Part shown: positions 8,038 through 60,911 of the stretch, one piece after another
How positions within the stretch are numbered: position 1 is the first letter of the stretch
Layout of the letters: each line of letters begins with the position of its first letter
Origin: Amylostereum areolatum
Lineage: Eukaryota; Basidiomycota; Agaricomycetes; Russulales; Stereaceae
Direction: 5' to 3'
Assembly: GCA_012932865.1 (NCBI GenBank)
Contig: SAXG01000083.1
Location: 116,137 to 180,136 of the forward strand
Length of the DNA: 64,000 nucleotides
Translations under genes and position numbers: made by a program
The notes under the pieces: generated by a model
What the model was told of the DNA's origin: nothing
Databases searched by the model: none
What the model saw: the letters and a program-made list of their open reading frames with translations, nothing else

Positions 8038-9965
8038 GGCCAGCAAACGAGGTACGTGTGCTGTCTATCCTTCTACGTGCCCCAAGTTGACAGTGTGCTA
8101 CAGAGAATCTGTTCCAGTGCGCTGTTTCGGGTGTATGAGATCATGTATTTACCAGGCCGTAGACGATATCGACAATGTCATTTGAATAATTCTGACTACT
8201 GTATCTGTGGGCGAGTGCAAGCATGCAGCTTCGGAAATTTCGAGATGGGTGTCACCGGCGTGTGATGGAAAGTAAGCACGCGATTTGGCCTCCTCTTTTC
8301 TCTCACTCGCACCTTTCAAACCACGAGGGTACCGGTGCGTCTGAAGATCTGACTCCCAAGGCCAAGACTGCCATTGACCCATCTGTTGCACACCTTGTAA
8401 ATGGCGTTTCCGCCCGCTCTATCATCTCTCAACCCACAGCTACCGTACCCTAACCGTGTTGCATGACCAACGCAGAACGCGCTGTGATCCACGCCATTGG
8501 CATTCGCCTTGCCTAGGAACCAGACTTGGGTTTTACCTGATATTACCGTGTTCTGGACAGTACGTGCCCTTACGTGCCTTGTCTTGCCAAACTGTGTGCT
8601 TTGCTGACTATCCCAATCCGCATCTGTGCACATCTCGTCTCTGACCACAACGAACCTACGACTCCATCCCATCGGCGAGGGACAACCGGAACGGGAGAGA
8701 AAATGAAAACGCAAACGAGGTGTGTCCGTTCTCTTGTTCATCGTCCCCACCCATTTGTCCTTGGACTCCCTCACCGATACGATCGCTGACACCGCGCTTC
8801 GTCCAGGTATCCGCCCTACAACCACCGACCGGCTTCGGCATGCGCTCCGGCTCACGTTTCTATACGAGTGCGAGTCCGTCACCGAGTGGTTTGGGCAGAA
8901 CTCATCTGGGAACGCCATTGTCGTCATCGGAAGGCTATGGAACTACCTGATGCGTGTGTTCACAAACATTCTAATGCGACGTCGACTTATACTATCAACT
9001 TGGAACCTTCAGCACACTTTCACGGTCTCTCAGAACGTTACACAAGGTCAGATGTGCGACAAGCTCTCAAGATCGCAGTAGTGTACTGATTTCGACCAAG
9101 CTAGACCCGTCCTATCTACCCCTTCACGTACACAGTTGCCTCCCCACCACGAGTCTTCGTAATCACATTCTTTTCGCTCATTGCGCCGCGAGCTGTGCGA
9201 CAGAACCGACGGTGCGTCCTCTGTCTTTCATCATTTCCTCATATTTACGCCGCACGCAGGCGAATTGCTGAACAAAAGCCGCCTCAGGAATCCTCTCTTG
9301 GAGACCCCCTCCCCTGCGGATGCAGTGCGGGCGCGTTCACTACGAATACCACGCCATCGTCGCTGAACATGACAGCTCTCCACTCCGTCAATCCGTTGCC
9401 GACGCCCAAAAAGCTGACCCCTTCTTCTAGTTGTATCGTGCTGTGCGCTTCGTCGCCTTATATACAGTCTTGTGTGCTGGTGATCTGAAGGGGATATCCT
9501 CACATGCTTACGCTTTCCCGGGTTCAACAGCGGCGGGTTTCCATTCCTCCATTGGATCGTTCGTCACCGCGGTGTCTGCATGGGAATAGCCTTTCTGTGA
9601 CGAGAGGAGCACATTTAACATGTACCACTGAACAATTCTATTCTATTGCATTGCGTATCCCTACCACCTGCCACACTACGCAAGTACTCGATATACAGCC
9701 TCTCTGAGGGGCGCTGTGTGCAGCGACTCGGCATGGTCTGGTTTGCTTCGTATTGCGGCATTCCGATCCTGCTCCCGTTCCTCCCGTTCCTTCTCCCTCT
9801 CCCTTTCCCGCCATCTTCCAACTAGCCATCCCCTCTCCCCCAATATCCGTAGCGCTTCTTTCTATATATCCTTTCTCCTTCCTTCCGTCTCTGTCCCCCA
9901 CTGCACCGTGTTAGTCTGGCCTTGTACGAAGTTGTGTGGTAACAATGATAAGACTTATATACAAC
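8038..9965. other. No supported gene
   Basis: There are openings on both strands (for example minus 8316-8927 and plus 8722-9081). The plus-strand one has a hydrophobic stretch, but neither has a domain or a splice chain I can defend. Confidence 0.4.
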
Positions 9966-9983
9966 TAGAGCTCTTCACGAGTG
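9966..9983 (+). repeat. hAT left terminal inverted repeat
   Basis: Eighteen bases beginning TAGAG, identical to the reverse complement of 16951-16968. Confidence 0.85.
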
Positions 9984-10150
9984 GCTATACCCGTGAGTAC
10001 CTGTATGAGTACCTGTAAGGCACATCCGTGGGTATTGCTATCCCCGAGTACGAGTACTCGTCAGGTACAAACTCGCAGGGATGCGAGTATCAGTTCTCGT
10101 ACCACAGGTTACCTGTGCGGGTACCTGTCAGATACCTGTCAGGCACTTAG
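9984..10150. promoter_or_regulatory. hAT left subterminal repeats
   Basis: Dense copies in both orientations of a motif around GTACCTG (gagtacctg, cgggtacctg, tcaggtac, gatacctgtca). A similar cluster lies inside the right end at about 16745-16950. Such subterminal clusters are the usual hAT transposase binding sites; binding here is inferred. Confidence 0.65.
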
Positions 10151-10441
10151 CATTTCAGGGCTTAGTCAAGTCAGAATGTAAGCAACACAAAGTCCAGGTT
10201 TATTCAAGGGAGCAGGGTTTATGTATGTAAAGATAGTGGTGGACAGTTAGGTAAGCTATGGACATGCGAACAGTGGGATTACGGTGGCAGGGGGGAGGCG
10301 TGAGTAGATATAAAGCAGGTGGGGAGGGGGGAGGAGTAGTGGCAGCCGCAGACAAATGGGGGAGAGGCAATGCCAGGAGAGAACACGGGGGAGATCAAAT
10401 GGAGGGGGATAGTGGGGGGGGGGGCAGTGGTGTAGTATGAA

Positions 10442-13200
10442 TTAGTCCGACAGCTCCTCAACCTCAACTACAGTACCTTTGGACCTCTTCGACTTGTTGC
10501 GGAAGACGGTGAGCAACTCATCCTCGTTGACGAGCTCCTCAATGCCCGATGAGGCCCATGAACTGACGACAGTGGCAGCGCGGACGGACTCATCAGAAAG
10601 GGCATGGCGCCGCTTCGTGACAGTCAGGCCACCACGCGAGAAGCCCCGTTCAACGTCTGTGGAGGCGGCTAGATACGAGTTCCGTCAGTCTTGACACAAT
10701 GACAGAAAAGTCGGGACATACCAGGTGCAGTCAGGAAGTCAAGAGCCATCCGGGCAAGCGGGCTGGGAAGCAGCTGCCGCCAGTACTTGATGGGGTCGGA
10801 GACATGCCCGATGCGCGACGAGTTGAAGTATTCTTCAAGCTCATCGCCAGGGGCATCATCGACAACCATGTCGAACATGTCGTTGACAAGCTCATCCTGG
10901 AAGATACAACGTGAGTACCTGCAAGCAACACATGAAAGCGAGAGATACTTACTATAGGTGGCGCGACGTCGGAAACATCTGGCTTGTATCGTGCCCACTG
11001 ACCACGTGCAATCTTCTTGGCTTCGTCGATCCAGTCCTGTGGCCAGTCTTGCTGTACGAAGTAGCTGAGTTTGTACTTGGGGTGAAACACTACAACAAAC
11101 ATGAGTAGAATGAAGACGTAAGAGGAATGGCGACGTACTCATAGCCATGCGCGGCATAATGGATTCATCGGTCTTCGCATAGTACTTGTGGAGGATCTTA
11201 GCGCCACTTAACGCGGCCGCGCGCACGACAATGTTGAGAGATTTGTTGGAGCCGGTGTCCTCGAGACGGGCGGTGAGGATGTCGATGGCGGGAATGACTT
11301 GATAGAGGAGGGGCTTGCCCATTTGCTCCATGTGCTTTGTCGCCAAGAGGAAGTGCTAGGAGGAAGTCAGGATGATAAGCCTATGTCAAGCGGAAAGATA
11401 CACACCTTTAAGATTGGATAGAGCTGTTCTAGCATCAACCACTCGGCAGGTTGAAGGACACATTGGTGGAGCTTGTACTTGTCCTGGGCGACGAGCGCGT
11501 TGATTGGGGCTTTGATCTCCAGTGCACTTCCAATCATGTCCGCAGTCGAGTTCCAGCGCGTCGCAACGGGGCGGAGGAGGATCCTTTGAGGGGTGCGATG
11601 CTTAGCGCAGAGAGCAAGGAGGGCGATGCGGAGCTGAGGTGAGAAGTGGATGCGGGTGGAGAGCTTGGTGATCTTCTTCAGCGCCTGCCGCCCAGCCCGA
11701 GTGTCAGCCGAGGAGACCTTCAGCAGGCCAGCAACCTCCTTCTCGATCGCACTGATCTCCACCTCGTCGTAGGCACGACGGGCATCATCCTCCTCCTCCT
11801 CGTCCTCCGGAGTGAAGTCCTCCTCCTCCTCATACAGCTCAAGCTCGGGCATCACGTCGTCCTCGTCCTCGTCCTCGTCCTCCGTGTCGTTGTCGGTCGA
11901 GCCAGCTGCCTTGATCAACTTGGGCTTCGGCTTCGCCTTGCGGGTGAAGTTTCCAAGGATAGCCTGACACAGGTTAGTCATGAGACGGAAGGTGAGGAGG
12001 GTAAGTAAATGTACCTTGACAACCAAGTTGAAAACATGGCAGATGCACCGGACACGGGTCGTGGAGCCACCAACAGCGCCGTCGGGAAGAACAACATCGA
12101 GCTCTTGAAGCATGGTGTCGTTGTTCGACGCGTTGTCGAGCGCGAGAGCAATGAACTAGACGAGGATCAGTACAAAATCGACAACGGAAGCGGAAGATCA
12201 GCATACCTTCTCCTCAAGGCCGTACCTCTTCAAGCATATGTGCAGCTGCTCGGCGAGATACTCGCCAGTGTGCGCCTGAGTGAGGCGGATGAAGTCCAGG
12301 ATGATTGACTTCATCTCGCCGTTGTGGAAGAAGTACACGACGACACCGAGGAACGAGATTGCGTTCGGGCTCGACCAGCCATCGAGACCAATATGGTGCA
12401 TCCCGGGCAGGCTCTGTAGGCAATACAGTCAGTAAGATGCAGAACGACAGAAGATATGACATACCAAAAGAAATTCCTTGACATTGGCCTGGGAGATGGT
12501 GAAGATCTCCTTCACGTCGCGCGAAATGGTGCTATCCGACGGGATCACCGCGTTCGAGTTGAACATGCGCAAGATCTTGACCAAGTATTCATCGTCAATG
12601 ATAACAAAGGGGCGGTGCGAGCAAGCGACCCAAAGGTCGATGTACAACCGAAGCCTCTCGGGGCTGTACGTGCTCCCGTGAGCGAAGACGGCGATCGTGG
12701 ACTGATCAGGCTTTGTGATACCTTCGCAGGCACGGACATGCGCAAGTAGGTTGCTTGTCGAGGTGTCGGTCCGAGTGCGGATAACAACAACGGAGGGACG
12801 GCTAAAGATCGGTCAGCGGGAGGACTGGCTCAAAATACAGCACAGCCTACATTTTGCAGTGGAACTTATACTTGACTTTGCCGTTCTTGTTGTCGATGGT
12901 CGGCGGCAGAGTGTAGTGCTGGTAACACAACGATGACCAGGTCTTTATCTGCATCTCTGCATAGACGGTGAGCACATGTACATAGGAACAGATATTGAAA
13001 AACGTACCGAGAACCTCCTGGGGCGTGTTCACATCGACGCCGAACTTTTCATCAAACGTCTGCTTCAACTTCTTGGCTGGCGGCAACTCGTCTTCCGGCG
13101 GCGGCGAGCTTTGCGGCGTCGAGATGGACGACGTGCGCGAGACAGCGGATGACGACGAGGCCCTCGACAGACCTACTGCGAGCTGCTTCCGCTTGGACAT
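10442..13200 (-). CDS. hAT family transposase, apparently intact
   Basis: Ten exons join without a stop to 765 aa: 13008-13200, 12851-12956, 12465-12801, 12207-12413, 12015-12155, 11406-11963, 11139-11355, 10953-11089, 10722-10896 and 10442-10668. After a disordered, basic N terminus comes a BED-like finger region (YKFHCK, then DTSTSNLLAHVRAC). Next is the RNase H-like core, with HHIGLDGWSS and ALALDNASNN in the expected places, an acidic insertion rich in Asp/Glu, and ATRWNST. The C terminus has the hAT dimerisation block, with DVERGFSRGG and RRHALSDESV. Each intron is about 50 nt with GT-AG borders. The protein would bind the element ends and catalyse cut-and-paste transposition. It is transcribed away from the gene at 14536 from a shared 1.3-kb region. 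Confidence 0.92.
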
Positions 13201-13877
13201 GATCGTCGATCAAGGAGTTGAGCTCGGAGATGACGGTGCTGGGAAGGGACCAGGACGAAGACGGAGAAGACGGTGGAGGCGAGGGAGACGGAGACGGAGT
13301 ATGCAGACTAGGAAGGGAGTTTGTAGACAGGGACGGGGACGAGCACGGTGTAGAATAAGCTGATGAAGACACCGACGAAGACATAGAGGTGGAGGTGGAG
13401 GAAAACGAAGGTGATCTCGTCTGCATGAAACGTGCGACACAAGTGGAAAGATTAGCGTAGGGGAGAAAGAAAACGGGGAAAGAGAACGGAGGAGGGATGG
13501 ATGTCCTGGTCGAAACGCGCGGCTTTTTATAAGGAATGGGGCTGGCTAGTACTGAGGAATACTGAAGAACAGAATACATGTTAGATGTACGAGAAATCAG
13601 TATTATGCACGACTCCGTGCTGTCTTCGTCGGTGCTGGAGATCAGATGCGTCAGAAAGTAGTATATAGTATTATTATATAGCATACGTATCCAATTGGCG
13701 GGTGCGCAAGGGTGCGACGGTGTGCGTGAGCTCCGGCGGGCGTGAAAAGATCCCGGTCAGCGGGCCTCGGTTGTGGAGTCTCAGCCTCGAGGACGGAGAG
13801 ACACGTAAAATTTGACATACCATCTGCGAGGGATCCACGGCACTAGGCCAGATGGGGTCGTCTTTGTCGTGGGGCGT

Positions 13878-13975
13878 GGCCGTCGAGAGGGGGTAAACGA
13901 GGGGGGAGACGCACGGCGCGGCGCGGGCACACTATTGTGGAACCCGACCTGCAGCCGTGCGTCTCGGGACAGTGG
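13878..13975 (+). repeat. Inverted repeat, left arm
   Basis: About 98 bp, matching the reverse complement of 14288-14386 at roughly 80% by eye. Shared blocks include GGCCGTCGAGAG, AAACGAGGGGGGAGACG and ATTGTGGAACCCG. Confidence 0.75.
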
Positions 13976-14287
13976 ACGCTGTGTGAATGAAGAAGGTCGT
14001 TAGTCGGGCAAGCAACACAGAACGTGGAAGAGGGAAGGGGAGGGAGGGACGGGGGGGAAAGGTTGTGAGCTGGCACGGATATCCGTGCGCGCGCACAGGC
14101 CTGCACTTCGCGCGGAGTGTGAAACTTGAGCTGCTGATTGGCCCACAACTTGCGACTCGCGACTCGGACTTGCGCGTGGCAGTCTCAAGTCGCGACTTCA
14201 CCTCTCCCGGCATCCTTGCCCAGTCCTCGCCCTCCCTGTCTCGCCGTTCATATCCTTTTCTTTTCTTTTCTTCTCTCTCTTCCAGGT

Positions 14288-14386
14288 CCCACCGTCCCGA
14301 GAAGTTCTGTGGCAGGACGGGTTCCACAATTGTGTGCCCGCTCCACCCAGTTCGTCTCCCCCCTCGTTTGCCCGCTCTCGACGGCC
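14288..14386 (-). repeat. Inverted repeat, right arm
   Basis: Partner of 13878-13975, separated from it by about 310 bp. It may be the ends of a small non-autonomous element inside the hAT, or a hairpin-forming control region. Confidence 0.75.
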
Positions 14387-14535
14387 CCGCTCTCTTCGAC
14401 AACCTCCGCCTTTGACGGCCACAGCTTTGAGGAGAAACCTGTGGTAGAACTTCGTTTAGATTCTCGCGCTTGTGTTACAGGTGCGTATGTTGACTCGTAG
14501 CTCGTGTTACGGTGTAGCTAATGCGATGTTTCTAG

Positions 14536-16725
14536 ATGCCTGAGCCCTTCCCATATCCCTACGTCTACACGCACCCTTGGACGCCGACAACGACACTGAT
14601 CGTCGGCAACACGAACGTCGTCCCGCCGTCTCCAACTCTCTACCCGCCCCCCTGTGTTGGTTCTGACGGCTTATGGGGCCCACGCGAATGGACTGTCGTA
14701 CCCCAGCCCTTCGACCATCAAGCCCCGTACCTTGTCTTCCTGTGGGCGAAAACGTTCGGCCAGGAAGACACACCCCTCCTAGATGGTCCCATCAAGAGTA
14801 TGTGGCATCCCAACTCGACAAATCGCGGCGAGCATGTTTTGCGCGACGACGCCCGGCCTCCAATCCGCACCCTTCTTGACAACACACGTCGCCGTCTGGA
14901 CCAGCTTCGCCCGACCGTCTCCCACAGGGCATCAACTGACGCCGCCCTAGCTCAGGTTCTCGTCCCGGATCGCGCTATCGAACGGGCCACCGACGCGTAC
15001 GGTATCCTCGTCACCGGCGTCACGTCTTGGGCCGAGTTCGTTCAGGCATACCGTGCCTTCCAGCGTGGGCTTCTCGAGGTCCACGCGTTCTTTGACTGGT
15101 GGTCCGTCTATTACTGTGGTCAAGACCTCAGCTCGTTTTCCAAGTACGCAGTTCGCGGTGCGATCTTTTCCGAGCGCGACCTCCGGTTGTACGCGTCGTT
15201 TGGCCGTCGCGGCGTTGCTGTCTACGCGGAAGTCACGACGTCTGCCTGGGCCTTGGATCGCAGCAAGAATATTGGCGAGACTCGAGGACTCTCCCCAGCG
15301 CGTGCCCTTGAAAGTAAGTCAGTGATACACTGTTCTTTGCACAACTCTGACATAACTTCCTAGAACCTGGCACGCCACGCAATCTCGCACAGTGGTTCTA
15401 CTTGCCAACAAGTGCACGGTATGTGGAGCTGGAACGGCAGGCTCGTGGAGCGCTCGAGCGCACGGATCCCTGGGTGCCGTCCACGCGAACTGTCCAGAAG
15501 CAAGATGCGCTCCGACGCGAACGGGAGGGTAGGTCTTACCTACCTTTGGATTCACATGCCATGTACTTACATGTCCTTAGAGCGGGATCGTTTACGAAAA
15601 AAATACCCGATGTTCAACGGGTTCAAGGCTGGAGACCTGCCGTACTGGAGCGAGGAGTTGCGTCGTCTCGCCGACATGTCCCCCCGCCCCGCGTACATGG
15701 CCGCCCCCGTCGAATGCTACACGCGTGCCTTTGCGGATGTCGACCTCAATCATTTTCAAAAGGTAGAGGGCGCCCTTGCAACATACTTCCCTCTTGTCCA
15801 GACTCTGTGGGGGCCTACTTATCTGGGCAAACAACTACATTTTGTCTACCGCCTCATCACCCTCTGGCCCCACCTCCTGCGGCGAATCACGCTCGCACGA
15901 ACCGACCCTGCTGTCGCTGCGCTCACAACGACTGAGTGGCGTGCGATCCTCGGCGATCAATATTTCCAGTACGAGTGCCATCCAGTCAAGCAACACAGCT
16001 CACACTACGACGCCGACCTCTTCTTCATCCACGGTGGCCCCAAAATCTTTGGCACCGAAATGTCTACCGCACTGGCGCTCGATCGCGAGGATGACCCGAC
16101 CGGCACGCTGGAGTGCGGGTGCGATGCCGATGAAGACAATTTGGAAGGTGATCCCAGCCTTCTCTACGCCGTCGCGTTCCGAGTCGTCGACGAGTCCCTC
16201 CTCATCGATCTCTCGTCGTTGACCGCCGAAGGCTACCTTCCTCACCCTCACGACACCGCGTGCTACCTCAACTTTCATGACCCGGAGCTTGATCGAAGTG
16301 ATCCGTCGCGTCGTGCGGTGATGGAGGCCGTTGAGCGCATCGTCTTTTACAAGGGAAGGCAGGGTCCGCGTGGGTGGGAGTTGGAAGAGGTTGGTGAGCG
16401 GCGAGGGTGGGTGAAGGCCCTCTGCGATTTTTTCTCTGGGTATGTTCCAGGTTTCGATACATTTTACATTCTCGAGCAGATGGGCCTCAACAAAACCAAG
16501 TTCGATCAAGTGGATTTCAACGCAATTACGGACATGAAGGTCTTGGATTGGTACGAGCACGCTCTGTTGCAATTTTACGTATATTCCTGTTTTTGTCGTG
16601 GTTCCTTTCCTATGCCTTTCCTGCCCTCCCCTTTGATGTATACTTGGAACTGTTTGGCCTGCCGTACGAAGACTCACTAGCTGTATTATGTGTACCAGAA
16701 CGTCATGGCTTATCTCCCTCAGTGA
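14536..16725 (+). CDS. hAT-borne protein of unknown function
   Basis: Exons 14536-15313, 15364-15528, 15581-16578 and 16681-16725 join to 661 aa without a stop. The last intron is longer (102 nt); its acceptor overlaps the TAG that would end the unspliced frame. No catalytic motif is recognisable. Visible features are a Pro-rich N terminus, a segment with FFDWWSVYYCGQDLSSFSKY followed by RRGVAVYAEV, basic/acidic helices around residues 290-330, a middle block with TTTEWRAILGDQYFQ, and a Cys pair (ECGCDADED). The overall look recalls large hypothetical proteins I associate with agaricomycete repeats (from memory, unverified). It lies within the terminal repeats, divergent from the transposase, so it is probably element cargo or a second mobility protein. 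A captured host gene is also possible. Confidence 0.78.
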
Positions 16726-16744
16726 CAGCAGGGGTGTGAAGTAG

Positions 16745-16950
16745 GCGGTCCATGCGGATGCCAGATCCGTGAGTACTCGCAGTAAGTATGACATCATTAC
16801 CAGGTACGACAGGTACTTGCAATACCCGCACACTCACGGATATGGATACCCGCCGGGCGGGTACCTTTGTGCCTGGTACTTGCGCGGATGCGAGTATGGG
16901 CTTAGAGGTCACGGGTACCTGTCTCAAGGTTGCAGGTACCCGTAAGAGTG
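16745..16950. promoter_or_regulatory. hAT right subterminal repeats
   Basis: A mirror cluster of GGTACCTG, CAGGTAC, GAGTACTCG and GCGAGTATG motifs, matching in content the cluster just inside the left end. Probable transposase binding region. Confidence 0.65.
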
Positions 16951-16968
16951 CACTCGTGAAGAGCTCTA
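16951..16968 (-). repeat. hAT right terminal inverted repeat
   Basis: Eighteen bases ending GCTCTA, the exact reverse complement of 9966-9983. Confidence 0.85.
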
Positions 16969-18189
16969 CCGCTCCGCAATTCCCATTTTCGAGAGCATAT
17001 TGTTCAAGCATTTTGCTGAATTCATCCGGAGCGAGGTCGATGGTATGATAGCTTCAAAATACTCCCGAATATACCTGACATCACCATTATAGTGTATGTG
17101 CCGTACGTCTTCTTCATCCTCGCTCAAATGATCGAGGTGCGCTCCGATATGCCAGAGAGCTATCGAAATATCCTCCCTCTGCTTTGGTCGCAATCAGTGT
17201 GGAAGGAGAAAGCCACGATACCTGCATTGGTATCCCTACTACAGGCATTTATGCGCTGGGACTTCCTATTTGTGCAAGAAACATGTTTGGACAAGCTACT
17301 CGGGGTTGTACAACAACGGCTGATTCCGTCGAGTGTGGACGACTCCTGGGGGTTTCAGATACTGACGACGCTTGTGGATTCGGTTAGCTGGTGAGCGTTA
17401 CATTGTTTTCCGGGGAGCGCTACTGTAACAGCTACCAGGACTATGTTCCAGCCACTCGCTCGTCCAATCATCATGGCCCTCCTGAAACGCTTACAATGGA
17501 GCCCCACGCACGACTATAAACGCCACCTGGCGTCCTTTCTGATCCATGTATTGGCACACGAGTTTCCAGCTTCTTCATTCATACAGGAGTTTGAGAACAT
17601 ACAGCGAGGGTGCGTTCAGCCTATACATAGAGAAATGATTTCCGACGTCAACATCATTCATAGGCTTTGGATAAAGGTATACACAAGTTGCATACTACCT
17701 AACTTGGAAAGTCGACATATCGTGGAGCACGTGGATGCCGTCGTTGGTGTCATGCGGGCTCTGACAGAAAGCCCAGAGATGCTTGCGCTTGATAGCAACA
17801 TACGGTTAGTTATACATTGGGTTTCCCGACGAAGCCGCGGCTGATCAATCATATTCCTACGCAGAAACAACTCGTTGCTCGTCGCCTTGGAGCTCTATAG
17901 AGGCCTCATGAGAAAAAACCTGGCCATCGATCCCGCCGTAACAACCAAAGTGTCTATTCGCGATGCAGGCGGAATCGTATTTTGGAGTGACGAAGAAGGC
18001 TCCTCAGAGGTATCCCAAATCTGGATTACACTCCTCCACAATGGAAAGAAGAGGTTATTAGCTCCCGCGGTACGGGAACGGGTGGTTGCTATTTTTTCCC
18101 GGTCCTCATTGTCAACAGACGCGAGACGTTTGGGCAAGGAAGAAAGCAATACGCTGGCGGAATTCATGGAGATGTGCTTGGAGATATGA
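16969..18189 (+). pseudogene. CSE1/exportin-2-like gene, 3' fragment
   Basis: Four exons (from about 16969 to 17042, 17093-17390, 17439-17804, 17865-18189) read in frame to a stop at 18189. The protein matches the C-terminal HEAT-repeat part of CSE1/CAS, the exportin that recycles importin alpha. Examples are YVPYVFFILAQMIE, IPALVSLLQAF, QQRLIPSSVDDSWGF and FQPLARPIIMALLKRLQ in the family's order. About two thirds of the usual protein is missing upstream. Homology starts within a few codons of the hAT end, and the left flank of the transposon holds no CSE1 sequence. The remaining exons have no stop or frameshift, yet the sequence is divergent from the family. It is probably a duplicated fragment, with the functional gene elsewhere. 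A chimeric transcript from the transposon cannot be excluded. Confidence 0.75.
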
Positions 18190-52520: not shown

Positions 52521-53393
52521 CTATTCCATCCCACCGTCCTTCTTCAAGACCCCAACGCATGCAATCTCATCCCAGATAGAGAACCTCCATACCACATTAT
52601 GATCTCTGATATCTGGCAAAGCCATATCATCTCGCAACAATGTCCGTAAGATGCCTTGATCATTGAAGGTCCGAAAGGAACCAAGGCAGTGGGATTTACA
52701 ACACCAAGGCGTATGACCAGGGTGCATTGTGTTCACCGCAGCCTGGACTTTGTATCCAATATGGTGGTATGTTAAATACCCTTCACCGCCTCCATATTCT
52801 TGAGGTATCTTGACAGTGATTCCCTTGAGGGTGAAGTTGGGATATGCCACATAGAGGGCATCAGCAGTGATAAAGTTCATGAGGAGAGTTGAACCGGTGT
52901 GAGGAAGAAGTGTGGCAGCAGGTCCTCTAGACACTTCTGTTAGGGAAATTTGACGCCCATCTGGACGGCGTAAGGTGTGGACCATCCAGGCACTGCCATT
53001 GGTGCAACCTATATAAGCGCTAGATATGCTCGATATGGTCTTGTATCTTTCCCCGGTGGGGCCTTCGAGATAGGATAGGAGGATGTTGGTGTAATGAGGG
53101 GGTATGTATACGTCTAGTTTCCCAGACCATGGTATTTTGCTCCAAGGCTGATGTTGGCATATAAAAGATAAAGCAGCTGGGCCAGACATAATGCCATTGG
53201 CATGACGAAGGGCGCAATGGAAACCGGCAGGGTTGTAGAACCAATGTGCGAGGAAAGAAGTGAGGCGGTCGACCAGGTGGGCTTGGACTAGTGTATGAAG
53301 TGTACGGGATGTAGATTGCAGTGCAAGGAGGTCCGCCAAAGGCATATAGGCAAATATCTTGTTGTGAAGGCGGTCTGCCTCAGTGGCTTCCTA
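52521..53393 (-). pseudogene. F-box protein paralogue B, 5' end cut by LTR
   Basis: An open frame runs from the LTR border at 53394 to a stop at 52521. It begins inside the F-box (RLHNKIFAYMPLADLLALQS) and covers the same body as paralogue A (LLMNFITADALYVAYP, HTPWCCKSHCLGSFRTF). The start codon and about 15-20 residues are missing; an in-frame TAG lies at the junction. The two genes are tandem, same strand, about 200 bp apart. The body shows no stop, so the retrotransposon insertion may be recent. Confidence 0.75.
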
Positions 53394-53815
53394 TCAGAAA
53401 CGCAGTTTACGAGACCGATAGAACCGCCTAAGTCGCGACAATGGGAGGAGCGAGAGAGAACAAATGAATTTGAGAGTGTCAGGCCTAGGGTAGTGCAACA
53501 CAGGCTACAGTACCGTACGACGAGATGGACAGTCTGGGGAAAAGGGAAGAGAAACACTGTCCTTATATACAGGTAGGAACGATGGTGCAATGTGATGCAA
53601 TAGTGGTGCGAGCGGGGGGAGACAATAAGAAAGGAGTCATGGGGTGGAGGATGGAAGTCCGGAGCGATGATGTCATAGATAAGGGGATGGGGTTCCGCTC
53701 AGAAGTCCGGGCAATGACGTCGTTGGAGCATGTGATGTGAAAGAGAGTCATGTGCTGTGACACGTCGTGTGTAGGAGGTCTGTAAACGAAGAGAGAAATG
53801 GAGCGATCCGTGACA
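53394..53815 (-). repeat. Chromovirus 3' LTR
   Basis: 422 bp. On the element strand it starts TGTCACGG directly after a purine tract (AAAGAGGGGGTAA) and ends TTTCTGA at 53394. A TATA-like box (tgtatataagg) lies near 53566-53576 on the minus strand. About 96% identical by eye to the second copy over their shared 300 bp. Confidence 0.85.
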
Positions 53816-55490
53816 TTACCCCCTCTTTAAGATGCGCTTTCGCCTGGAGCGAGATGTCATCTGCAAGGGTAGATGCGAGAAAATTGTCAAAGGAGATGCC
53901 GAGGGAACGCACGGGGCGGGGCACATTTGGGTGACGCTTGTGGAAGGCATCGATCATGTCAGTAACCTTTGAGAGCGACGAACGCGGAAGCCAGGTGTTT
54001 TCGGAGTCGGGATAGCTGGCCCACTTGACAAGGTACTGAATACCTTTCTTGTTACGAGTTGGCTTGGAGTCGACAATGTCTTCAACGTCATATTTTTCTT
54101 CGTCGTCAATGAGGTCGGGTGGTGGCTGTTCGTAGTTTGGCCCGTGAGCGGTTGTCTCCTTGTACGCAGTGAGCAATGAGGCATGGAAGACTGGATGGAT
54201 TTGCCACGTCTTTGGCAGCTTCAAGCGGTAGTTGACTGGGCTGATGACGTCAATGATCTTGAAGGGTCTGAATCGTTTGGCGGCGAGCTTAGCTTTTGGT
54301 CTTGTCATCTTCAGATTCTTGCCTTCTAGCCATACTTTGTCTCTGACGGCAAACTGCGTTGACTTGCTGACCGTGTCGCCGTTGTAGTGCTTCATCAAGT
54401 CCGATGCGAGGGCGAGGCTGGCCTTGATCTCCTGTCGGACTTCTTCAAGTTGACGGAGGTGTTCTTCAACTGCAGGGACCTTTGAGGATGGGTTGACAGA
54501 TGGGTACATCTTGGGGAGGAAACCGTAGAGGACTTCAAAGGGAGCCTTTCCAGTAGCTGCATGGGTGCGGGAGTTGTGAGAAAACTCGAAGAAGGGCAAC
54601 CACTTCACCCAGTCGTCTTGACGGTAGTTGCAGAATACTTGCAGGAACTGCTCGAGGTTCTGGTTCTCGTGTTCGGTCTGGCCATCTGTCTGTGGGTGAT
54701 ACACTGTGCTGAGGGCAGACTTGATCCCGAGCTTCTCGTTGAGTGTACGCATCACCTGTCCAGCAAATTGGGGTCCATGATCCAAGATGATCTTGTCTGC
54801 TAAGCCGTAGTGTCGGTATACCTTGTCAAAGAGAATGTCGGCCGTGCCATCGCTGGTGATCTTCGTTGTACATGGGGTGGTAACCACCATCTTGGTGAGG
54901 CGATCGACCACGACGTTGACGGCGTTATAGCCTTCGCAGTCAGGGAGCTCGACAATGAAGTCGGTAGAGATGACACTGAATGGTTGATTAGGTATTTCGT
55001 TTGGGATCATGTCAATGTGGGGTTGGCTGCTCTGCATCTTCGTCGACTGGCAGATTGCGCATCCTGCTACAAAGTCGCGGACAAAGACAGACATGGCAGG
55101 CCACCAATATTCACGACTCACAAGTTCGTAGGTCTTGAAGCGACCAGGGTATCCAGCCAGGGGCGATTCATGGTACATTTTGACAATGTTGCGTCACAAC
55201 TCGTCATCTGCGGGGACGTATATCTTTCCTCTGAATAGGACCAGGCCTTCTTTGTAGTTCCACTCTTGGAGATTTTTGACGAGTGTATGTGGCCCATTCC
55301 GTAGGATGGCATCCAGAGCTTGAACAACCTCAATGTCCTTGGTCTTGCAGTCGTGGATCCGTCGTCGGAGTTCAACATCGCCGAGGGAGGTTACTGCTCC
55401 TGGCCTCGTTGCGCGTATCTGGAAGTATTTGGGGTCAAGCAGGACACGCTCCTTGTTGTCATTCTCAACGCCGTGTTTTTGATCGGGTTA
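53748..55490 (-). pseudogene. Chromovirus integrase with chromodomain
   Basis: Includes the H2C2 region (HESPLAGYPGRFKT, CAICQSTKMQ), an integrase core (STDFIVELPDCEGYNAV, YHPQTDGQTEHENQ) and, near the C terminus, a chromodomain (YDVEDIVDSKPT, YLVKWASYPDSENTWLP). The chromodomain marks the chromovirus branch, whose integrases target heterochromatin. The frame passes through the purine tract and ends about 68 nt inside the LTR. Upstream it is separated from RNase H by TAA (55488-55490) and by TGA (55194-55196). Confidence 0.88.
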
Positions 55491-57842
55491 TCGAGACATC
55501 GGGTCCGGGCGATGGGATACTCCTGGTTTGTGAACGAGCGACAAGTCAAATCGGGTGAGGAAAAGAGCCCAACGCGCCTGTCTGCGGCTCAGCTTCTGCA
55601 CCATCTTGAAGTGCTCTAGGTTCTTGTGATCCGTCCATATTTCAACAGTGTCCGGGGCTCCTTCAAGATAGTGGCGCCAGGCTTCGAGTGCGCATATGAT
55701 TGCGAGCAGTTCTTTGTCGTAGATGTCGTAATTGTGTTCCGGTTCCGATAGGGCCTTGGACAGATATGCCACCGGATGCCAGCGGCCGTTGTTACCTTTC
55801 TGAGAGAGTATACCTCCTGTGGCAAAGTCTGAGGTGTCGACTTCAACGAGGTAGGGCTTCTTTGGGTCAGGCATGACTAAGACAGGGGAGGAGGTGAACG
55901 CAGCTTTCAGCGCGTCAAATGCAGTCTGACAGTCCATCGACCAATTCCATGTGCAGTCCTTCTTTGTCAAGTCAAACAGAGGTCGTGCAACCTTGGAGAA
56001 GTCTTTGATGAAGCGTCGGTAGAAATTACCAAAGCCAAGGAAGGATTGTACGTTCTTAACCGTTTGAGGTGTCAGCCAGTCCTGAATACCCGCTACTTTG
56101 CCAGGGTCCATTGTGATCCTGTTGTGCGAGTTAATGAGCCCAAGGTATTCAACGGAGTCTTGCTCAAAGACACATTTCTCCGGTTTGAGAAACAGGTCGT
56201 TGTCTTGCAAACATTGCAGAACCTGTCGTACTATGACGTGATGTTCTTCCATGGTTCGAGTAAATACAAGGATGTCGTCCATGTAGATGATGACTTTGCC
56301 CGAGTCGATGAGATCCTTGAAAAGCTCGTTCATCATTGCCTAGAATGTCGTGGGAGAGTTCATAAGGCCGAAAAACATCATCGTAGGTTCAAAGAGGCCA
56401 CAATTTGTCTTGAACGCAGCCTTCCACTCGTCGCCTTCCTTGATGCGGACATTGTTGTATCCCCAGCGGACGTCCATCTTGGAGAAGATCTTCGCACCTT
56501 TGAGGCAGTTGACGATTTCTGAGATCAGCGGCAAGGGATACTCGTTCTTAACGGTACCCTTGTTCAGCTCTCGATAGTCCTGTACAGGCCGCAGCTTCCC
56601 ATCCTTCTTCTTGACAAAGAAGAACGGACTTGTCTGCGGCGACTTCGACGGGCGGATGTAGCCCTTCTTCAGGTGGTTGTCGAGGAAGGTATCGAGCTCG
56701 ATCTGTTTGGAGGGGGAGAGTGGATAGATCTTGCAGGGCTTGGGTTCGAAGCCGTCCTTCATGTCGATGGCATGATCCCACGGTCGTCGGTCGGGTAGTC
56801 GTTCAGAGGTTTTCTTGTTGAATACCGGTGCGAAGTCGCGGTATGGAGGGGGAACCAAGTCTTCGAAGGTTTGCGGGCGCGCATTTTCCTTTGAGTGCCC
56901 TGCGAGTTCTTGCGCCTTGGTGAAGCCCGCACGGATCGGCACTGCCTCTGGGTTGGGGCCATCAGTTCCAGGAAGGATCCCAGCACAACGTAGGCCATTG
57001 ATCTCCCAGTCTCCGAAGACCATGGGTCGTTTGTCATTGTCCTCAGTAAAACACTGGGCAGGTAGAGGTGAGAGATGGAATGTACGGATGCGAACACCTT
57101 TGACCCTGCACGCGGGAATGGCATACGTAGGGATCGGGGACCAGGAGACATACATTGGTTCTGGGAAGGGATTGTCCGGGACTCGAGGCACTTTGGGGGC
57201 TTTGTCAGCTTGAACCTTTCGCTGTGATCGGGTCGACAATGGCTTTTGCGGCTTTGTTGTAAGGTTTGTCACTATCAGTTTGGAGAGGATGCAGGAGGGA
57301 GGGCAGCGGAGCATGTCAACACAATCTTGCTGCCAGTCTATGGTGGGGTTATGCTCATCGAGCCAGTCTGTTCTAAGGATCATATCGTGATCACCAATGT
57401 CGGTGATAAAGAACTCAGCTTCTTCCTCATGGTATGCCTTTGAGTCTTGCGAGTATATCCGGATTTGCTGGGTCGTTGTGTCACGTACCCAACCCATGAT
57501 GTTCTCGGTGCCGTCTACGTTACGCATGGGGAACGGGTTTTCTAGTTCTCTCGTGGTCAGCTTCTTGCCTTCAGCAAAGCTTCGATTGATGATGATTCCT
57601 TCTGCACCACTGTCAAGCAGTGCATCTGCGTCGATTTGTTGGCCTGTCGCTTGTCCAATCATCTTGACTCTGAGCATTATCGAGGGTGTTTGCCTGTTCT
57701 TTGTGACAGTAGAGAGGTGCACACACAATGGATATGATTGCTCACATAAAGTCATGGATGATAGTACAGAAAAGCGATTGTAAGATGCCAATAATACAAG
57801 TCCTTTGCCTCCACCAGACGACGCGACTGGGGGGTGTTTCAA
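55491..57842 (-). pseudogene. Chromovirus protease, reverse transcriptase, RNase H
   Basis: The protease shows [16 protein letters not shown] and [16 protein letters not shown] follows with [40 protein letters not shown], then after a TAG (56340-56342) IYMDDILVFTRT, which holds the catalytic YMDD box. RNase H contains VEVDTSDFATGGILSQ and YDKELLAIICALEAWRHYLEG. The stop inside RT, replacing the Gln of the usual NSPxTFQ, blocks polyprotein synthesis. Confidence 0.88.
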
Positions 57843-60066
57843 AAATCCTGTGACTCCAGAATATCCTTCAATAGTGCCACTGCCTGTTCCTTACCTTCCA
57901 CGTCCAGATCCTTCAGCTGGCGGGTGATTGCCGCGATGGTCTTGGACGGGTCGGGGGTCGCTTTCGCAGTGGGCGGAGCCGTGTTCATCGGCAGGGGAGG
58001 GGCCTTGGACCCAGTCTCTACTGCGCCTACCCGTCGCGCGCTCGAGTTGTGGTTGGGGCAGTTGCGAGAGACGTGACCAGCCTATCGACACATGAAGCAC
58101 TTGCCTTCACGCATCATCTTTGCGCGTTCGTTGTCCGTCAGCTTTGCAGGGCGGGTCGAGGTGTTGGTGAAGGCGCCGACTTGGCGCAACAAGGAGTCGT
58201 TGGCTGAACCATTTGAGGTGAGCGCGACAGCCCCCTTGGACTGACTGCTCTTCCTCTCCGGGTTCTCTTCGAGCCACTGGTGGTTGATGCGGCGGGCGCG
58301 CTCCTTCCACTCCGCAAGGTTGGTGGGAAATGGGTACAACCGGGCCACCTGCTTGCCAAGGTCACGCTGAAGTCCCTTCTTGAAAAAGTGGATTAGCACC
58401 TCGTTGTCGTACCCTGACATGGTTGCCAGCATCTCAAACTCGGTGATAAAGTCAGTGATGTACCAGGTGGTCATTGCGAGCTTGTTGATCTTACGCTGAG
58501 CCTCTATCTTCGGATCGACGGGCACAAAGTTTTTGCCGAACCTCTCAAAGAGCTCTTTGTAGGAGCTGTAGTGGAGCATCGGGGGCGTGAGGCCAAGGGT
58601 TTCGGTGTCTTCCTTCTTTTCTTTGTCGTCGAAGAGTTCCATGTGGCAATGCGTGGCCCAGGCTTTCGCCGTGTCGTCCTCCATCAAGCTGAGGAGGAGC
58701 ATCATCTTGGCGTCGTCTGTGGCATAAACATCCTTGTTAACACGCAGGAACATACGGAGCTTGAGGGAGAACCAGAGGGTGTCGCGTCTATCGCCTTTGA
58801 AAGGCTTCAGTTTGGGGCCGATCTCCTGCTTGGAGACGGCAGGCTTGGATTCGGTGTCGGGCATGGTGTCGGGGAGGGCGATGTCAAGGGATCGGTTGAA
58901 GGCTTCTTCTTCTTGGCGTCGGTGTTCCTTACGGTTTTCTTCAGCTTCGTCAAGCTCAATTTGGACTTCGCGCGTGACTTGGAATTCGAGAGGGGTAACG
59001 AGTTCCTGGCTGTGTTTCCAAAACCAGAGATCCTGAACGGGGTTTGTGCTAGAAGGTTGCCACTCAACTACTGTGCACCCTGGTGTTCCTTGCCGGTTTT
59101 GTCGATACGCGTACCACTTCCTGGTGACATTGTCGAACTTGATTCCCTTGGGGGGGAGGGGGACGGTGGATCGGCGGGGCGGTGGGGAAGAAGATGAAGG
59201 TGGGTCGTAGAAGGCGGCGAGGAGGTCGGCAGCGGTGTCGAAGTCGTCGTCTATGAGGTATCTGCCGTCACTTTCGTAGAGGGTACCAGTCTTGCCTGCT
59301 TTCTTCGGGGGGGTTATGGGCCCAGTGTACCAATTTCTTGGTTTCCAAGGAGGTGAGAATGCAGTATTCGTGTAGGAAGTAGTTGCGGAAGATGCCCAGG
59401 GGAAACTCGGGGGTAGAGGGACGGGTGAAGGGTTGGGAAGCGATAGTTCTAGAAGAAGTCAGCCGCGACGGGGCGACAACCGAGGAGTTTCTGGGTGAGG
59501 TAGCCGGCTTTTAATGCCTGGCGGACCTTGTGTTTGTGGTGGCGGCGGCAAAGGGTCTTACCCTTGACGGTGGGACAGAGGACTGGTGGCGGGGTGGATT
59601 CGGGGGTCCAGCGATTAAACTGGGAGACGGAGATGAAACTGGTCTGGAGGATCGGGTTGGGGGCGTTCTGGATGAGATCCGTGTGGTAGGTGGGGGCGTG
59701 GAGGGTGAACTCGAGGCGTTCAAGATCTATGTTGATGCATGTAGTGATCCGAACGTATAGAGCGAGGACGACAGTACCGTGATCCTTATGCCACCTCCAC
59801 TCAAAAATGCGGAAGTTGAGGCCGTGCGCGGTTCAAGGATCCTTTTTGCAGAGGTTCTGTACGGGGATGAGGCAGTTGACAGTGACGGCGTTGGACCAAG
59901 GGTAGGGGAGTGGTGCATCGTCGCGGGGGGGTGATTGGCTTTCCGTTGAACGGGAGGAAGACTGGTGCATTCGGGAGGTCCGTGGTGGGAGGTTTTAACG
60001 TCGTAGAGACGGCAGAGGTAGATGGAGAGAGGGGTGCGAGGTAGGCGTAGGGATAGACTGTCCAGG
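57843..60066 (-). pseudogene. Chromovirus gag with CCHC knuckle
   Basis: Gag sequence runs from the LTR border: a Pro/Ser-rich N part, a folded part (FRIFEWRWHKDHGTVVLAL), then LYESDGRYLIDDDF, IELDEAEENRKEHRRQ, capsid-like sequence from 58864 (LWFSLKLRMFLRVNKD, FITEFEMLATMSG) and a zinc knuckle CFMCR-stop-AGHVSRNC. Breaks seen: TGA at 59833-59835, TAG at 59449-59451, TAG at 58082-58084 inside the knuckle, and frame changes at two C7 runs near 59926-59932 and 59310-59316. The 58864-58082 frame is the longest intact part. Confidence 0.8.
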
Positions 60067-60068
60067 CG

Positions 60069-60372
60069 TCAGAAACGCAGTTTATGAGACCGATGGAACC
60101 GCCTAAGTCGCGACAATGGGAGGAGCAAGAGAGAACAAATGAATTTGAGAGTGTCAGGCCTAGGGTAGTGCAACACAGGCTACAGTACCATACGACGAGA
60201 TGGACAGTCTGGGGAAAAGGGAAGAGAAACACTGTCCTTATATACAGATAGGAACGATGGTGCAATGCGATGTGATGTGATGCGATAGTGGTGCAAGCGG
60301 GGGGAGACAATAAGAAAGGAGTCATGGGGCGGAGGTCGGAAGTCCGGAGCGATGATGTCATAGATAAGGGGA
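60069..60372 (-). repeat. Chromovirus 5' LTR, partial
   Basis: Matches 53394-53697; the match stops at 60372, one base before the second element's LTR. The outer 120 bp of the LTR must lie beyond that insertion, outside this window. Confidence 0.85.
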
Positions 60373-60373
60373 C

Positions 60374-60911
60374 TGTTAAGGACGGTCCTTATCACGTGAC
60401 AAGCGGCTCAGGCTACAGTACTCTTACGCGTGAGAGGTGGGATCAGGTGATCCAGACGTCTCGGTTATACGAAGGTAAAGGTCGATAGACGAAGCAGTAA
60501 GTCTTCGCGGAAGACTTAGGCGAGTCTATCAACTTAGTTGGCTTAGGATTCTCTTTAGTGCTTTAAGAGGAGGTTCTATTAAGAACAGTCCTGTATTTAC
60601 AAAGAGAACGAGCTGAGGAATAGCTCGCTCGTTGAGCCTCCTTTTATAGGAAAGGAGGTCGAGTAAATATATGTACATTCGGCGACCGTTGCATCAAGTA
60701 TCTACGGAGACGAGCTGTGGCACTGTCGAGGCTATGCCGTTGGGACGGTGACGATCTGTGGCACCGTCGAGGCTATGCCGTCGAGACGGTGACGATCTGT
60801 GGCAGCGTCGTTGAGACGGTTACGAACTGGGGCACGGTCGTAATCCGTCGTTTAGCGACGTCCTTCCTAGTAAGGAAGTGGAAAATGAAGTACCTTGGGC
60901 AAGTCGTAACA
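60374..60911 (-). repeat. LTR of the nested element
   Basis: Ends are the 5-bp inverted repeat TGTTA/TAACA. The internal side is followed by the complement of AGAGAGGGGGATAG, a typical polypurine tract. It contains a tandem array at about 60712-60835. Confidence 0.82.
60712..60835. repeat. About 45-bp tandem repeat inside the LTR
   Basis: Two full copies and one shortened copy of a unit with TGTGGCACCGTCGAGGCTATG and GAGACGGTGACGATC-like sequence (about 45 bp). Confidence 0.8.

Follow-up and report, generated by a model that had tools for sequence, protein, structure and literature searches.

Most DNA transposons have a single gene, and a second gene that purifying selection has maintained across deep divergence signals a requirement beyond what the transposase can supply. 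The window analysed here, a stretch of 64,000 nucleotides from Amylostereum areolatum, contains at positions 9966-16968 a hAT element of 7,003 bp in which a transposase gene and a divergently oriented second gene are both uninterrupted. Amylostereum belongs to the Russulales. The original prediction, made from the window alone, took this locus for a hAT element with a genuine but unrecognised second gene. Is this gene an inherited part of the element, and what could it contribute? Such questions can be tested within one genome, where recently moved copies of almost the same sequence occur together with a related element that lacks the gene and with paralogues that stand alone.

Architecture of the window element

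The features of the element, in window coordinates, are as follows.

9966-9983, plus strand: left terminal inverted repeat, TAGAGCTCTTCACGAGTG; exact, and also present in the other three full copies and in many short ones
9986-10165: left subterminal region with TACCTGT/GGTAC motifs as direct repeats
10442-13200 (with stop), minus strand: hAT transposase gene, 10 exons, 765 aa, GT-AG introns, no internal stop; exons 13200-13008, 12956-12851, 12801-12465, 12413-12207, 12155-12015, 11963-11406, 11355-11139, 11089-10953, 10896-10722 and 10668-10442 (with stop)
13201-14535: 1.3-kb intergenic stretch between the divergent gene starts, presumably the shared promoter region of both genes; this head-to-head layout is repeated in families A-D
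13874-14390: inverted repeat within the intergenic stretch, arms 13874-13975 and 14289-14390, 83% complementary
14536-15313, 15364-15528 and 15581-16680 (with stop), plus strand: second gene, 3 exons, 680 aa, no known domain (from gene models; 12 head-to-head loci keep the gene)
16745-16950: right subterminal region with GGTACC/CGGGTA repeats
16951-16968, minus strand: right terminal inverted repeat, exact reverse complement of the left end

The terminal inverted repeats are short and begin with YAG, a hallmark of hAT elements, and the perfect 18-bp ends of the original prediction are exact on both sides. The intergenic inverted repeat is not a general feature, since only shorter ones occur at two other loci (L020 and L012) and none at a third (L014). 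An Rfam scan of window positions 9500-17500 gave no match.

The 765-aa transposase is likewise intact as predicted, and an alternative acceptor would give a product of 761 aa. All nine introns lie at the same alignment columns in the window element and in two family C elements (L013 and L014). The 765-aa model contains the hAT C-terminal dimerisation domain (PF05699, Dimer_Tnp_hAT; 27.5 bits against a cut-off of 21.4, E 2.6e-6). A BED zinc finger was not matched in Pfam, either at E up to 10 in a model with some intron read through or at E up to 0.01 in the 765-aa model; this N-terminal domain is frequent, not universal, in the hAT superfamily.

For the second protein, the predicted intact reading frame stands, free of stops, and the predicted length of 661 aa gives way to 680 aa in the present model, a difference that perhaps arises from an exon edge or the 3′ end. 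Its lack of a recognised domain is borne out by database searches. Pfam gave no match to the protein itself and only one weak match (DUF1156, E 0.51) among nine family members, while sequence searches of the PDB returned two chance-level matches (best E 0.12), and none in a further search or in a profile search. AlphaFold2, with input limited to the window exons and two Amylostereum chailletii proteins, yielded mean pLDDT values of 44 and 37 and no usable fold. These two hypothetical proteins, OF83DRAFT_1088842 and OF83DRAFT_1088027, are the only homologues found in protein databases by a word-filtered search, which reaches close relatives only; neither carries an annotation, and each is 54% identical to the second protein. 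OF83DRAFT_1088027 also matches part of the copy on contig C139 at 92% identity (172 aa) and the copy on C148 at 85% identity (462 aa).

Across nine second-gene proteins, the invariant positions are occupied mostly by Pro, Gly, Trp, Arg and Leu, together with two Asp residues and a CxC pair. Conservation is complete at Asp294 (16 of 16 aligned rows), and both Cys of the CxC pair occur in all 14 filled rows. The iron motif of 2-oxoglutarate dioxygenases of the TET/JBP type is HxD...H. Among the nine proteins there is no invariant His and no conserved HxD, and the only His conserved to at least 90% in ten rows from families A-D is His412 (8 of 8 filled rows), within an HLL stretch. Identification as a TET/JBP dioxygenase is ruled out by the missing HxD, and Pfam gave no match to such an enzyme either.

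Copies, families and relatives without the second gene

The search of the species' own genome (57 Mb in 182 contigs, designated C) found four full copies of the window element, here family A: the window copy, two on C126 and one on C161. They are 99.63-99.93% identical over alignments of 7,004-7,013 bp, which argues for recent movement. A search for further copies with both genes had been proposed in the original prediction, and all four full-length copies found carry the second gene. According to the gene models, two of them (the window copy and C126:58-65k) keep both genes uninterrupted, while the second gene at C126:31-34k and the transposase on C161 look disrupted.

No target-site duplication flanks the window copy (TATACAAC on the left, CCGCTCCG on the right). 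Within 16969-17844, a coding match to the CAS/CSE1 C-terminal domain begins about 115 bp past its right edge, with longer matches on C33 and another fragment on C140. Part of the left flank (9400-9708) is duplicated, at 98% identity and on the other strand, at C165:72395-72703. The missing duplication, the CAS/CSE1 fragment and the C165 duplicate together suggest that the flanks were rearranged after insertion. Elsewhere in the window, at about 53390-60804, lies an LTR-retrotransposon-like stretch with a similarity of up to 92% to copies that sit within or next to several hAT elements.

The exact 18-bp end occurs 144 times (69 + 75) in the 57-Mb genome, against no occurrence of a control pattern read backwards. 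Among the matches listed (100 of the 144) there are at least 40 adjacent plus/minus end pairs; 35 of these are 634-668 bp long, and two correspond to full 7,003-bp elements. Half of the 144 ends corresponds to roughly 70 short, MITE-type copies. Of 40 candidates scored, 36 were 82-83% identical to the first 183 bp at the element's left end. Nineteen places match the C-terminus of the second protein, from residue 634 onward (to 669-676), and at least 11 of them fall inside short-element end pairs among the matches listed; the lost parent of the MITEs therefore also had the gene. The original prediction would have counted against itself any copies that share these ends but not the second gene; the only such copies are the short, MITE-type ones, and none is among the full-length copies found.

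Both genes were modelled by splice-aware alignment at the loci fetched, and the head-to-head pair was found in four element families (A-D), with transposases 27-33% identical between A and D. It is present at 12 of the 15 transposase loci found of this clade (A 4/4, B 2/2, C 3/3, D 3/5, and 0/1 for a single element on C107). Transcription is divergent at these loci, in the same layout as in the window element, and at two of the 12 loci (C85 and C139) the later part of one gene is inverted or displaced. Beyond family A, the families comprise the following loci.

Family B: C165:22-28k and C85; ends not found
Family C: C137, C105 and C139; on C148, a second gene without a transposase in the 9.9 kb covered
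Family D with the pair: C131, C129 and C108

The 8-bp target-site duplication of hAT elements is perfect at the three other full copies of family A (TAGCCCGA, CCTCCCAT and TGCTGGAC), at all six MITEs inspected, and in C137 (CCGCACCC), C129 (CGTATGCG) and C108 (GAGGCGGT), where ends and duplications enclose both genes and further insertions lie inside each element; it matches at seven of eight bases in C105 and was not found for family B. C137 and C105 share their flanks and are counted as one insertion. Their second genes contain two and five stops, respectively, and their transposases none; the second gene can therefore decay first, which speaks against a strict need for it. Two 8.4-kb pairs of family C-type ends (C96:404417-412783 and C9:38645-47007) were considered as larger cargo elements and rejected, as each is a short element with a gypsy-like LTR retrotransposon inside, identified by visual inspection of the reading frames. 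The two are 97.6% identical, flanks included, and hence represent a duplication.

Three loci of the clade are without the second gene. It was not found beside the D-type transposases on C124 and C133, both of which are copies cut by other insertions. The third, at C107:64562-68280, is a hAT element of 3,719 bp with ends TAAGG..GGGCACGGG and a perfect duplication (GCTACTAC); it contains only a transposase with one stop, 41% identical to family D, and the second gene is absent from it. Genome-wide, at least 58 matches to PF05699 were obtained, none of those listed being a family A-C copy; five lie in D loci with the second gene and three in the clade loci without it (C124, C133 and C107). None of the remaining 50 is within 20 kb of a second-gene match, as judged by comparing places by eye.

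Ancestry and constraint of the second gene

Trees of both genes recover the same families A, B, C and D, and transposase and second gene have been co-inherited head-to-head in at least four element families. In the transposase tree, C107 joins family D (96/96) on a long branch whose placement was flagged as unsure by the program. If this topology holds, the second gene predates the split of the A/B/C line from the D line and was lost in C107, the alternative being separate gains. A second-gene intron lies at one alignment column in all ten models from families A-D (phase 1 in nine), and a phase-1 intron lies near it in all six modelled paralogues described below.

Purifying selection acts on the second gene as it does on the transposase. 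For the family D pair C129 and C108, dN/dS is 0.109 (0.08-0.14) for the second gene and 0.092 (0.07-0.12) for the transposase, at dS values of 1.04 and 1.01; for the family B pair, the values are 0.175 and 0.167. Wider comparisons of the second gene give 0.20 (window against C148) and 0.19 (window against C165), where dS is high. Four close pairs gave 0.47-0.70, as decaying copies would, and the window and C126 second genes gave 0.21 with an interval of 0 to 1.23. With the pair present in families A-D and this constraint, the central claim of the original prediction, a hAT element with a genuine second gene, is supported.

More distant relatives of the second gene, at 22-33% identity, were found on C101 (two), C98 with a duplicate on C73, C120, C146 and C13. 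The 9.9 kb surrounding each of them yielded no related transposase, and the gene family is therefore wider than the transposon. The possibility that the gene is a stand-alone host gene, raised in the original prediction as an objection, is thus borne out in part; one of these paralogues (C120:34500-44400) adjoins eEF1A. Beside these two genes is an open frame that looked like a TET/JBP dioxygenase, although it has no Pfam match. At C98:705000-714900, a Plavaka transposase (PF18759) adjoins a 5-kb stretch 99.6% identical to one on C73, with the paralogue inside; terminal repeats were not seen in the two 60-bp ends of this duplicate. The second-gene tree inserts C101:117k and C98 between family D and families A-C, a position that is weakly supported (84/87), and the four other paralogues stand apart, so that the transposon-borne copies form no clean clade. 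The data fit either the uptake of a host gene by a hAT ancestor or the reverse direction.

Candidate roles and comparison with known systems

We favour, with some reserve, the reading that the window element is a recently moved, autonomous-looking hAT of a two-gene lineage whose second protein raises the fitness of the element as a dedicated accessory factor. As the related C107 element has moved without it, the 680-aa protein probably stands outside the cut-and-paste chemistry, and counter-silencing or regulation is the more likely task. The protein would act on the element's own DNA or chromatin. It may bind the repeated subterminal or intergenic motifs and so oppose host silencing, or it may instead tune transposase expression. 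GTACC occurs 15 times in both terminal 200-bp stretches combined, against seven times in the middle 6,003 bp. These noncoding GTACC/ACCTGT repeats could equally be transposase binding sites, since hAT transposases also bind subterminal repeats.

A further-reaching proposal, which we put forward tentatively, makes the second protein the first member of a new class of counter-defence factors encoded by transposons in mushrooms and related fungi. Such a factor would be of non-TET type, bind the repeated motifs of the element and lift the silencing of element and MITEs alike. Its source would be a fungal gene family from which a hAT ancestor acquired it; free-standing members of that family, including the one adjoining eEF1A, may serve the host in related chromatin functions.

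Among other explanations, it is possible, if doubtful, that the second protein is a transposition co-factor that binds the subterminal repeats and aids transposase assembly or target choice. Second proteins of CACTA, MuDR and Harbinger elements provide a precedent, and the co-inheritance and equal constraint of both genes, the repeated motifs and the invariant CxC pair would all suit such a role. However, C107 moved without the gene, Pfam recognises no DNA-binding domain in the protein, and the repeats may serve the transposase alone.

That the second gene encodes a repressor or copy-number regulator limiting its own element is unlikely. The four full copies in 57 Mb, compared with roughly 70 short ones, and a divergent layout suited to co-regulation are in keeping with it, but autonomous DNA transposons commonly occur in few copies. 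It is very improbable that a captured host gene travels as passenger cargo without benefit to the element: the paralogues without a related transposase nearby (C120 adjoining eEF1A, C146, C13, the two on C101, and C98) would suit this reading, but a passenger should have a dN/dS of about 1, whereas this gene was kept through four families, with orientation and intron conserved, at values near 0.1 in family D and at most 0.2 more widely. Finally, two nested elements stuck together, as the intergenic inverted repeat and the missing duplication of the window copy might suggest, are refuted by the same composite in families A, C and D, each with its own ends and target duplications; the lack of such an inverted repeat in L014 also speaks against them.

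We found no description of this pair of hAT transposase and second gene in the open-licence literature. The claim of an undescribed system was nevertheless too strong, as a hAT element with a second gene, encoding a different protein, is in print (Kojima 2025, PMC12730594). Within the same genome, C107 resembles the window element in its hAT ends, 8-bp duplication and related transposase, and differs in its length of 3.7 kb and its single gene.

VANDAL elements are of the MULE type. Their VANC anti-silencing proteins act via non-coding, often tandemly repeated targets (PMC5735166, PMC10398659). The accessory factor favoured here may work in a similar mode, or in that of the TET/JBP accessory genes of other transposons, though there is no sign of a TET/JBP enzyme. 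The repeats at the ends of the present element recall those targets, as far as these accounts describe them, but may instead serve the transposase; the comparison with VANC is one of analogy, VANDAL being plant elements and the present one a fungal hAT. If the second protein does oppose silencing, it would represent a TET-independent escape route for fungal DNA transposons.

In the available excerpts of Kojima (PMC12730594), TET+ Kyakuja is the only such element reported from the Russulales, and counter-silencing or regulation is argued for, over chemistry, for the TET/JBP genes of fungal transposons, hAT7 included. The nearest precedent in print is the hAT7 TET+ group of rust fungi, many families of which carry a TET/JBP dioxygenase gene beside the transposase (Kojima 2025, PMC12730594). 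Both are fungal members of the hAT superfamily with an accessory gene next to the transposase. In the hAT7 families described there, the duplications are of 7 bp and the TET/JBP gene lies upstream in the same orientation, whereas the present element has 8-bp duplications, a head-to-head arrangement and a second protein without HxD.
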